Source of the DNA: Pleodorina starrii
Taxonomy: Eukaryota > Chlorophyta > Chlorophyceae > Chlamydomonadales > Volvocaceae
Direction: 5' to 3'
Assembly: GCA_030267565.1 (NCBI GenBank)
Contig: BRXU01000013.1
Coordinates: 1,404,001-1,468,000 of the forward strand
DNA: 64,000 nucleotides
Positions 55,701 through 61,460 of the stretch are shown piece by piece (position 1 is the stretch's first letter; each line of letters opens with the position of its first letter). The notes below the pieces were generated by a model. It was not told the DNA's origin and made no database searches. It saw only the letters and a list, made by a program, of their open reading frames with translations. The translations under genes and the position numbers were made by a program.

Positions 55701-58270
55701 GCTGCCAATGGATCCGAGGTTTCAACGTGAAGACTTGAGACGGACTTATCGCACTCGGAGCCCAAAACACGGGCACCCAGCGGCTAGCCAGGCAGAGCCC
55801 CCACCTGTCACCAGCAGTAGGTTGGAGAGGATGGACCCAAGCAGGGAGGCCCGTACGACATCGTACAGTCCGTTGTACAGCGCCGCGATGGACAGAATGA
55901 TCTCCACGATGTTGCCGAATGTCGCCTGATCAGGACACGGCATGAAAGGAGCCCGATCAGGCTCAATCACGAGAAATGGCCTGACGAGGCAAGGATCAAG
56001 ACACACAAATCACATACGCCGTAACGCAACCAATGCCTATTTTGCGGGGTACCGTATGTCAGACTCCCCAAAAGAGAGCTTGTTTTGGGCGTGCCCGTTG
56101 TTGTTGTTGTTGTTGTTGCTGCTGTTGTTGTTGTTACTTGGGCGGCATTTTAGCGTTTGTGCGCACAGCCAAGAAAGTGGGCCGGCAGCAAGGTGCCGCA
56201 ATGCCCGCCAGGCACAGCGAGATGCAGTGCATCCAGGTCCGCAGATTGGGACATGGGGGCCTGAACCATCATCGGCACTGCCACCAATACTCCTTTTTTT
56301 CATATTAATCGCTTCCCCGGCATACTCTGTCGACCCTCACACAAAGCCACCATCACCAACACCGCCACCACCACCCTCATGACCAACACCAGCACCAGCA
56401 CCGGCACCGGCACCGGCACCAGCACCGGCACCGGCACCGGCAACAACACACACAAACACACACGCATGAGTTCCCACGCCCACAACCTCCCACTCCCACG
56501 CCGTGTGGCGCCTCACATTGATGAGTCCGCCGATGACGGAGCCGTACCGCAGCGCCAGGTCCTCCGTGACGTCCCCCAGCAGCAGCGCCAGCGGAACGAG
56601 CGCCACGAAGTTCTGAAAGGGTTTTAGGGTTTAGGGTTTTAGGGTGTGGCCGGCAGCGCGAGGTGTTCCCGGACTTCAGGGTGGAGGCAAATTTGAACCT
56701 GAAACGGAACCCGCGACGCGGCGACGAGGGGTGGGGCTGCGGAGGCGAGGCAGGGATGGGCCTCGCGAGGTGTTGGGGGGTGGAGGTGGAAGGGTTTCTA
56801 TAGACACTCCCTTATCTGCCGAAGAAATTGCTTTAAAATCAATGCATATAGCAGCAGATATATGCGTAATGTCTAATCATAATATAATCATTGAGAAAGT
56901 AATATGAGTTCAAAAAAAAATATGGGCCTGACTCCAGCAGAAATAGTTGCCTGTGGAGTTTATATTATGATAAAAGGACTACTGTTGTGCATTCTTTGAC
57001 AGAAGTCTTTGAAGCAATACGCCTTGATGACGATATGATTAAAGATGCATTGGATTTCGTGGGGGGGGCGCGTGTGGCGCGTGAGGGTATGTGGGGGCAA
57101 GGGGTGTACAGTCTCCTCAGTGCATTGAAATATATGTATAAGAGGGTCACGTAATTTTGTTGATTTAAAGGATTATGAGTTATTCCTTACCAACATTAAG
57201 GAGAAACGTAATAGTTCAAGGAAAGAAAGATTAGCTGAAGAATTGTCCTATTTACAAGAATTACCCCACAGAAAATGGAATGCACCAACAATTTTACCTG
57301 TACGGGTTAATCCCAGCAGTGTTGTTACTATTTTATCCATACCGTATTCTGTACCGAGTCGTCTAATAAGTTATAGTTTGAAAGCATATGTTTATGCTGA
57401 AGAAATAGAACTCTATTATGGTAACAAATGTTTACAGAAGATGCCTAGGGTTCATCAAGGTTATGGCATTGATTACAGGCATATTATTGATTCTCTTAGG
57501 CGGCCAGCTCTGGGGCATTGATGGATGGGCTCATCTGCGGTAGATTGCAAGGCCGCAACTGTGCCGAGAAGATCTTGCAACAATGGGGTAATAGCATGAG
57601 AAGGCAAGGGACAGCAGCGGATAGCAGAAGATAGCAGAGAACAGGAGGTTATACAAGAACATGGGGGAATGTCATGGAATGGCGGGGGATGGCGGAGGTG
57701 ACAAGAATGACGGGGTATGGCGGGGGATGACGAGGGTAGCAGGGGACAGGTGGGGTAGCGAGGGAAGCGGTTGAAAGCGGCCCTTCCAACTTACCAAGCA
57801 GAAGACATAAACTGCATTCCATTTCAGCGCCCCAGCTACAATGCCCAAAGGCACTGCCGCCAGTAGCAGGTTGATCCAGTTGCTGAGGAATCCCTTGAGC
57901 GCGTGCAGGTCGCTGACCCACCAGGGCTCCTTCGCGCGTTGGACGAGGCTCACGGCCTTGGCCCACCGGGGAGGCGCTCCAGACAGCAAAGCTTCCACAT
58001 CTGCAGGTGCAGCGCATATATGCAACACAACCGATTTGCAGGATTCGCAATAAGAGGTGCACGCGCACACGTACAGTAGCTATCCACGCACGCGAAACCT
58101 CCGGAACACGAAACGACAGAACTCCCAGTCATGATGGCGCAGCGTGCTTGTAAAACGATCGTATTACCTGTTCCTTGCTCCGCGAAGCGGCCGGACGACA
58201 CCTTTCGCCGCCACTGGTTTTTCGAGCGCACTAAGATGCGAGCCTTGTTCCAGACATCCATGTCAGTCAT
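52725..58270 (-). CDS. CAX: CAX-type vacuolar Ca2+(cation)/H+ exchanger
   Basis: Twelve exons in phase: 58270-58168, 58000-57795, 56612-56517, 55925-55805, 55515-55443, 55154-55011, 54722-54671, 54452-54280, 53835-53800 (36 nt), 53530-53423, 53145-53063 and 52888-52725, giving 452 residues, normal for CAX. CAX proteins use the vacuolar proton gradient to load Ca2+ and other cations. Both ion-binding alpha repeats are visible: [21 protein letters not shown] with [13 protein letters not shown], and [14 protein letters not shown] with [13 protein letters not shown]. The N terminus (MTDMDVWNK...[20 protein letters not shown]) precedes ~11 hydrophobic segments. The usual acidic loop between halves is here Gly/Asn/Glu-rich (exon 8). 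Intron 2 (57794-56613, 1.2 kb) contains bacterial gene fragments. Met 58270 is the first in frame. Confidence 0.95.
56098..56136. repeat. (TTG)n microsatellite in CAX intron 3
   Basis: About 13 trinucleotides, mostly TTG with one or two CTG units. A second microsatellite, CACCGG/CACCAG hexamers, lies at about 56386-56440 in the same intron. Confidence 0.9.
56622..56644 (+). repeat. Telomere-type TTTTAGGG repeats at a CAX intron acceptor
   Basis: TTTTAGGG, TTTAGGG and TTTTAGGG in a row. TTTTAGGG is the Chlamydomonas-type telomere unit. On the gene's minus strand the CCCTAAAA repeats end 7 bp before the acceptor CAG of exon 3, so they make up the 3' end of the intron. Confidence 0.85.
56803..56907 (+). 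pseudogene. hslV: Bacterial HslV C-terminal fragment
   Basis: 34 in-frame codons followed by TGA. The residues [18 protein letters not shown] and SNHNIIIE match the C-terminal end of HslV (ClpQ), the threonine peptidase of the bacterial HslVU protease, which ends in an IA(A)xICxxTNH pattern. Only the C-terminal fifth of HslV is present. Codons are strongly A/T-ending, unlike the host. It overlaps the next fragment by ATGA, as expected of an intact bacterial operon. It lies inside a CAX intron on the opposite strand and cannot be functional. Confidence 0.82.
56904..56948 (+). pseudogene. hslU: Bacterial HslU N-terminal fragment
   Basis: The frame begins ATG at 56904, inside the HslV stop, and reads [15 protein letters not shown], the N-terminal motif of HslU (ClpY), the ATPase partner of HslV, whose family start is M(G)LTPxxIV. 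Similarity ends at 56948, before the conserved DxxIxGQ segment, so the gene is cut after 15 codons. Confidence 0.75.
56951..57062 (+). other. Unidentified AT-rich open stretch, probably bacterial
   Basis: An open frame of about 37 codons (includes [20 protein letters not shown]) directly follows the HslU fragment in another frame. A/T-ending codons and acidic helix-like composition point to coding sequence from the same AT-rich source, but the family is not recognised. It ends in a G-run at 57060-57068, where host-like GC-rich DNA resumes. Confidence 0.45.
57150..57521 (+). pseudogene. istA: IS21-family transposase (IstA) C-terminal fragment
   Basis: About 123 codons open to a TGA at 57519. 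The sequence shows the IstA C-terminal region: [20 protein letters not shown], a Leu/Pro linker, the beta-rich block with [17 protein letters not shown], a YYGNK turn, and the hallmark [20 protein letters not shown]. The DDE catalytic part is absent, so it is a fragment of the ~500-residue transposase that works with the IstB ATPase. AT-rich codon use matches the HslVU fragments. It sits in the CAX intron on the opposite strand. Confidence 0.85.
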
Positions 58271-59778: not shown

Positions 59779-61460
59779 TCACCCGATGACCATGCCGCCC
59801 TCCGCCGCTGCGGGCACGGGTGCTGGCGCGGCCCCGGGCAGCGGCAGCGCGACCGGGTCCCGGCCCGGGAAGGGCATGTCGTCGATGAACTGGGGCACCT
59901 GGTCTCCCTGCACGTAGGTGTGGTGCGCGCCGGTGCCGTCCAGCGTGATGAGGCGGATGACGCCGCCCGAGGAGGCGTCCCGCGTCATGGCCAGCGCCAC
60001 CGCCTCCTTGACCCACTGCTCCGCCTCCGCGCGGGTCATGTCCTCGCTGCAGGACAGTGCAGTACAAAAGCACGGCGGTACGGAAGGACGGCAAACCAGG
60101 CGCGGCAGCCGGCAGGCGTTAGGAAGGGTCGTGGGCGCACGTGGGGCGAGTGGAGAGGGAGGGCACTTAGCGACCGGGAGGTGTAGCGGGAGGAAAAGGG
60201 CGTGTCTTGTGTGGGGGGCGACGGAGCGGCGCACGAGCCGTGCGGCAGCGGGAATCGATCGCCATAGCCGTGAGACAGCGAGACGTGGCCGGGCCTCCCA
60301 TGCCGCCGTTCCGGCATATACCCCGCGACCGGGGCTGGTTGGTTTGCTCCGTGTCTACGCCTCCGCTCCGCCCGCAGCCACGAGCCTCCAGTCCCAGCCC
60401 CAGGTCCCATCGCTTTCTTGGCGCAGTTCTTGGCGCAGAGGTAAGCTAATAACCCACGCACTGTGCACACATTCCAAGCTCGTACCAAGCTCGTACCCTG
60501 CCCGGGCCTCACAACTCGAACCCAGCCCGTCATCCTCCCGTACGCAAAGCCCCATGCACGCACTCACGCAGTCATGCAATCCACCACTCACGCTGTCGTG
60601 CACTCAGTCGCTTACCGGAACTCGCTGTCGCAGTAGCCCCAGATGTAGGTGCTGCCCGAGCCGTCGATGGCCCACTTCTCCTTGGCAAGCGTGCCGCCGA
60701 TGGGCGCGCCGAACACCTGTCCTCCCCCGTGCTTGTCCCACCCCACCACCAGCATGGCCCCCACCAGGTGGTCCTTGTTGTTGTAGTTGATCTAGAAGGT
60801 GAAGTGCGAGGACGTGAAAGTGCGAGGGGGTGAAAGTGAGGCGTGATGGGGGTGTCGGGGGTTGTCTTGGAGGTGCAAGGAAAGAGGGCGCATGCTATCC
60901 AGCGCCAGAATATAATCTCAGGGTTAGGAAAGCCAAAGAGGGAGGAGGTGTATGCAAGTGGGCGGGAGGATGGTGAGGGCTGCCACCGCGCCCGGAAGCC
61001 AGTCCCCCACGGCGCTCCATGCTTGGAAGCTCGTACACAGGGTTTCCTGCCTTACCAGCCGAACAAGGTTCGCTGCCGCCTCCACGGTCGGCTCCTCCCC
61101 GGATTCAGCGATCATTTGGTCCAGATAGTGCTTGACTGCAGCCGGAAGGGGCAAACGCCGGGAGTGCGTCACCGTGGGCCCGTCCCAACGGCAGCTGCTG
61201 CCTCAAGGAGACTGCTGCCAGGTTCATTTCTCACCATTATCGCTGATAATTTGCGTGTCTGGGGCACTGCCGGAGCGGCAGAGGTAAATGAAGTCGGAAA
61301 GTGGCGCGATCTTGTTAGATGCGCGGTTCATAATATAGTTCCCAATGCTGACGCGACCGTCTGCACCCAAGACGACACCTCCTTTATATGTGCATGCTAC
61401 GATAGTGGTACCCGTTGAGGGTGCAGCCTCAGCGTGGCTGGCGCCCCGAGAAATGTCCAT
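59779..61460 (-). CDS. PBA1: 20S proteasome subunit beta-1
   Basis: Four exons in phase: 61460-61235, 61135-61056, 60791-60616 and 60046-59779, giving 249 residues. Beta-1 is the caspase-like, threonine-protease subunit of the 20S core. A short propeptide ([17 protein letters not shown]) precedes the catalytic N-terminal Thr of [19 protein letters not shown]; the Gly-Thr cleavage site and the catalytic Lys of the GADGRVS segment region are in place. Later blocks fit beta-1: [52 protein letters not shown] and [15 protein letters not shown]. The C terminus adds ~25 Ala/Pro/Gly residues ([13 protein letters not shown]) beyond the usual end. Met 61460 was chosen because it is the only in-frame ATG before the propeptide. 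Confidence 0.94.

Follow-up and report, generated by a model that had tools for sequence, protein, structure and literature searches.

Nuclear copies of organelle DNA (NUMTs and NUPTs) are short, patchwork, and mostly inert sequences, and are often ascribed to break repair. For bacterial DNA in the nucleus of a volvocine alga, the closest described case is that of Volvox carteri, in whose nuclear DNA rickettsial 16S, murB, ddlB, and ftsQ sequences, as described in the 2015 report, were confirmed by sequenced PCR products and taken to indicate past infections (PMC4324946); the kind of event considered here is thus already known. The first-pass annotation, which correctly recognized rickettsial DNA in a volvocine alga, had overlooked this precedent. 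Among living symbionts, 'Candidatus Megaira' MegNIES296 is described as a symbiont of the alga Mesostigma viride NIES-296 (PMC9098888), and another Mesostigma viride Megaira has been assigned to Clade A (PMC10132079); the V. carteri sequences were placed in a 'subclade B' (PMC4324946), a naming that may not correspond to the Clade A scheme of PMC10132079.

The window analysed here is a stretch of 64,000 nt from a 136-Mb assembly of Pleodorina starrii in 95 contigs, and lies within a contig of 3.09 Mb. With a probability of about 0.85, the region from 56797 to about 57497 is a patchwork of a Rickettsiales hslV–hslU junction and a rickettsial-type IS21 istA fragment, the DNA fragments of which were likely joined in by non-homologous end joining where the chromosome had broken.

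Structure of the insert and its host intron

The host gene encodes a Ca2+/H+ exchanger (CAX), whose exons on the minus strand, between about 58270 and 53061, were identified by tblastn with proteins of Volvox africanus, V. carteri, Gonium pectorale, and Chlamydomonas incerta. The nearest named CAX protein is Vafri_16964 of V. africanus (70% over the whole joined query), followed by that of V. carteri (72% over 78% of the joined query). CAX exons flank the insert within the one large contig, and host nuclear DNA is therefore present on both of its sides (Table 1).

Table 1. Features of the insert and of the surrounding CAX intron, in window positions (G206 and G192, Rickettsiales genomes; L010, Rickettsia endosymbiont of Oxypoda opaca; P0001, V. 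africanus protein; P0122, metagenomic IstA)
Feature	Position	Strand	Basis and remarks
CAX exon downstream of intron	56517..56612	-	tblastn limits; 94% identity over 32 residues to V. africanus P0001
Predicted CAX intron	56613..57794	-	1182 bp, GT-AG; between tblastn-defined CAX exons; ends GTAAGT and CAG
hslV 3' end, last 36 codons and stop	56797..56907	+	100% nt identity to G206 and G192; NCBIfam HslV models
hslU 5' start, first 16 codons, ATGA overlap with hslV stop	56904..56951	+	100% nt identity to G206 and G192
AT-rich piece, 37% GC	56952..57063		composition; searches gave no convincing relative
GC-rich (70%) host-like segment between bacterial pieces	57064..57113, edges approximate		composition
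Short AT-rich stretch	57114..57140, edges approximate		composition
IS21-family istA internal fragment, about 119 codons	57141..57497, edges within ~3 bases	+	PF22483, phrog_1157, L010, P0122
CAX exon upstream of intron	57795..57941	-	tblastn limits; 71% identity over 49 residues to V. africanus P0001

Taken as a whole, the insert consists of the hslV–hslU piece, AT-rich DNA, a GC-rich segment of about 50 bp, and the istA piece. The first-pass annotation had placed a bacterial operon junction at 56803–56948 in an AT-rich insert within an intron of the GC-rich CAX gene. The intronic location is borne out by the tblastn exons on both sides and the ends of the predicted intron, and so is the contrast in composition: the AT-rich pieces have a GC content of 34–37% as against 55–63% in neighbouring host stretches, and the hslV–hslU piece 33.5% as against 63% in the preceding 183 bp. 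The junction is indeed at that position, with true limits that are slightly wider (56797–56951), whereas the remaining patchwork up to about 57497 had been missed. Neither the GC-rich segment 57064–57113 nor the intron flanks have further copies within the window, and no second copy of the insert was found in the genome by a search in which simple repeats and words of very high frequency are skipped.

The intron and its surroundings also contain other features. Near the acceptor, at the 3' end of the CAX intron, there is a telomere-like run, TTTTAGGGTTTAGGGTTTTAGGG, at 56622–56644 (one match in the window, as against none in 100 shuffles); as a guess, this run could be the trace of a break that had been repaired in the intron at an earlier time. 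At 57667–57742, just past the insert on the donor side of the intron, there are two imperfect direct repeats, each G-rich and 38 nt long. Exon-like matches to PF00227 (proteasome family) at 61230–61418 and 60591–60806 on the minus strand, one of which has internal stops, likely belong to the host's own gene for a proteasome subunit near the CAX gene.

Origin of the hslV–hslU junction

The hslV–hslU piece (155 bp) comprises the last part of hslV and the first part of hslU, the two genes overlapping by ATGA at 56904–56907, as the first reading of the sequence had held. Its HslV tail matched TIGR03692 (E 7.4e-8, profile positions 140–171 of 171) and NF003964 (E 1.3e-7), with scores far under the whole-protein cut-offs because the tail alone is present, and gave no match in Pfam. 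The 16 codons of hslU read as in the donor gene, after which the two sequences diverge. All 155 nucleotides are identical to the hslV–hslU junction of two Rickettsiales genomes, G206 and G192, the former being the putative 'Ca. Megaira' MegNIES296; chance does not account for such a match. Among 85 Rickettsiaceae genomes, 60 were matched by the insert query at E<=0.001; for the hslV–hslU piece, G276 (92%) and G275 (86%) were the runners-up, with all others at <=84% over the aligned part. At the protein level, the 36-residue HslV tail found a match at E<=1 in 199 of 261 Rickettsiales genomes, with identity at 36/36 residues in G206 and G192. An origin of these frames from eukaryotic genes is ruled out by the 155 bp identical to bacterial DNA.

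In a tree of 23 rows, comprising the window and 22 loci chosen from 21 genomes rather than all 60 matching ones, the window groups with G206, G192, G276, and G275 with a support of 97/93. The donor proposed by the first-pass annotation, a member of the Rickettsiales such as 'Ca. Megaira', is upheld by this placement, which it had suggested as a check, and by the exact identity; judged from sequence, the donor of the hslV–hslU piece was almost certainly a Rickettsiales symbiont of the 'Ca. Megaira' type.

The same exact identity to a symbiont genome would be expected if the culture contained a symbiont whose DNA had been misjoined to host sequence in the library or the assembly. Such a chimera would mean that three or more short stretches, foreign or host-like, had all been wrongly joined inside 700 bp of a 3.09-Mb contig. 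Moreover, a 20-kb stretch surrounding hslVU in Megaira, the one donor region searched, matched the assembly in these 155 bp alone. This portion of a symbiont genome was thus not retained alongside the host sequence, but filtering may have removed symbiont contigs. In a search of the genome for bacterial SSU rRNA, no match was obtained among the 5 of 3881 candidates that were scored, a fraction that makes this result weak. Overall, we consider an artefact of this kind quite improbable.

The istA fragment and the AT-rich pieces

The piece at the far end of the insert encodes an internal part of IstA, the transposase of IS21-family elements, as judged from matches to PF22483 (E 1.3e-7; 31.6 bits against a cut-off of 27 bits) and to the transposase family phrog_1157 (E 1.3e-12). 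Its translation is identical to the metagenomic IstA P0122 at 117 of 128 residues and aligns to residues 257–384 of a 490-residue IstA; among plasmids, most of its best matches carry the annotation IS21 istA. No complete istA with istB was found in the insert, the internal part of istA alone being present. The piece is open throughout, with neither stop nor frameshift, as was the case in 1 of 10,000 letter shuffles. In DNA, it is 81% identical over 349 positions to L010, and the differences over 117 codons fall mostly on third positions (17, 11, and 44 by codon position), which points to divergence of istA while it was coding in bacteria. L010 carries at 496–2756 an IS21-type element in which two istB-like frames come after a 490-aa istA, and the related metagenomic cluster P0122 has 483 member sequences, so this type of element looks common.

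Matches to istA at E<=1e-10 were obtained in 3 of 261 Rickettsiales genomes, and neither G206 nor G192 is among the three. The donor strain was therefore neither of those two, or the istA piece came from another bacterium; its source may thus be another strain or another bacterium than G206 and G192.

The AT-rich piece 56952–57063 contains an open stretch. As DNA, it matched none of the 261 Rickettsiales genomes at E<=0.001, in a search run without a positive control; a protein search of the same genomes gave 13 of 261 at E<=1, with a best value of 0.058, which we took as chance. For this piece, neither plasmids nor the PDB gave a match, the protein collection offered no candidate, and two phage records appeared at E 0.7. 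The whole insert, compared as DNA with plasmids, likewise gave no match.

The GC-rich segment between the bacterial pieces could reflect two insertions, in which the hslV–hslU and AT-rich pieces entered at one time and istA at another, with 57064–57113 as original intron; the kind of donor and the end joining would be unchanged. This segment is as GC-rich as host DNA, and the lack of the istA piece in G206 and G192 means that a shared donor is not required. On the other hand, two independent rickettsial events 50 bp apart would be a coincidence, and filler DNA captured in one repair is the simpler explanation; two separate insertions are accordingly unlikely, if by no means negligible.

Mode, age, and meaning of the insertion

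The preferred reading, insertion of a patchwork of DNA fragments in the repair of a break, can be described as follows. Megaira would have lived in an ancestor of the alga, and DNA released from it would have reached the nucleus. A chromosome break in the CAX intron may then have been mended by non-homologous end joining of loose DNA fragments, with the AT-rich pieces and the istA piece presumably deriving from the same symbiont as hslVU. The joining of loose fragments at a break fits the abrupt edges of the hslV–hslU piece and the adjacent pieces of different origin. At the left edge, the host base at the join differs from the donor base, and no bases are shared there.

The preserved operon junction had been read at first as proof of a transfer of DNA rather than RNA. 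Taken alone, it does not exclude RNA: the ATGA junction would equally be present in a polycistronic hslVU mRNA, which could have been reverse-transcribed and then inserted; it is the neighbouring istA that favours DNA, with joined DNA fragments as the simpler reading. In G206 and G192, hslU continues, and the istA and AT-rich pieces do not come after it; in addition, the right edge of the insert lacks a poly(A) run, and no direct repeat of at least 10 bp flanks the insert. We therefore regard the RNA route as very remote.

As to function, the insert holds no complete frame of a transferred gene, hslV being represented by its 36 C-terminal codons, hslU by its 16 N-terminal ones, and istA by about 119 internal codons. 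It is likely inert, because these gene parts are incomplete, antisense to CAX, and would be spliced out, and it probably records a past infection.

The absence of differences in 155 bp limits the divergence from the donor to <=1.9% (95% bound), and the insert is likely young on an evolutionary scale, since the identity bounds donor divergence at about 2%. Between G206 and G192, 44 of 3094 bp differ at the hslVU locus, and the divergence over 16.6 kb is 3.2%; 874 of the 2939 155-bp windows of the 3.1-kb hslVU locus are free of differences. Exact identity thus fits any donor strain of the group, and a very recent event is unproven.

The insert extends the list of volvocine algae whose nuclear genomes hold rickettsial DNA, and because its donor piece agrees at every base with a sequenced symbiont, a limit can be placed on its age. 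We would suggest, with somewhat less than even confidence, that this volvocine was recently infected by a Megaira lineage whose present host is a streptophyte alga, that symbiont DNA forms multi-fragment nuclear patches as organelle DNA does, and that introns record lost Rickettsiales infections across green algae. If assemblies of algae were screened with the genomes of Megaira, one could test how frequently symbiont DNA enters nuclei, and also whether a single lineage of symbionts passes between algae that are distant from one another.

Comparison with known insertions and donor loci

The insert is not the published V. carteri insertion, which is ruled out by the missing MurB_C and by the gene content: MurB_C (PF02873) had 0 matches in the genome, and of the 14 genomes of a control set, to which V. 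carteri did not belong, 10 were positive. The string 'hsl' is absent from the main text of PMC4324946, and the insert is not reported in the titles and abstract openings of the searched literature on Megaira or rickettsiae and green algae; within that literature, the host, the locus, and the donor match look new.

Compared with the hslV–hslU locus of the putative MegNIES296 (G206), the insert has the identical 155 bp over the junction, whereas in G206 the genes are continuous on a bacterial chromosome and the genome contains no istA match at E<=1e-10. The IS21-family element of L010 has a related istA (81% in DNA), but there the 490-residue istA is followed by istB-like frames, and the insert keeps about 119 internal codons. 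With the V. carteri insertion, as described in PMC4324946, it shares truncated Rickettsiaceae genes ('hydra group', Megaira-type) in volvocine nuclear DNA and separate loci lying side by side (16S adjoining murB in V. carteri), read as traces of a lost symbiont; the V. carteri region extends over about 9 kb, whereas here hslV–hslU and istA occupy about 700 bp of a CAX intron in another volvocine. NUMTs and NUPTs resemble the insert as short patchwork fragments in nuclear DNA, and differ in that their source is an organelle and not a bacterial symbiont.
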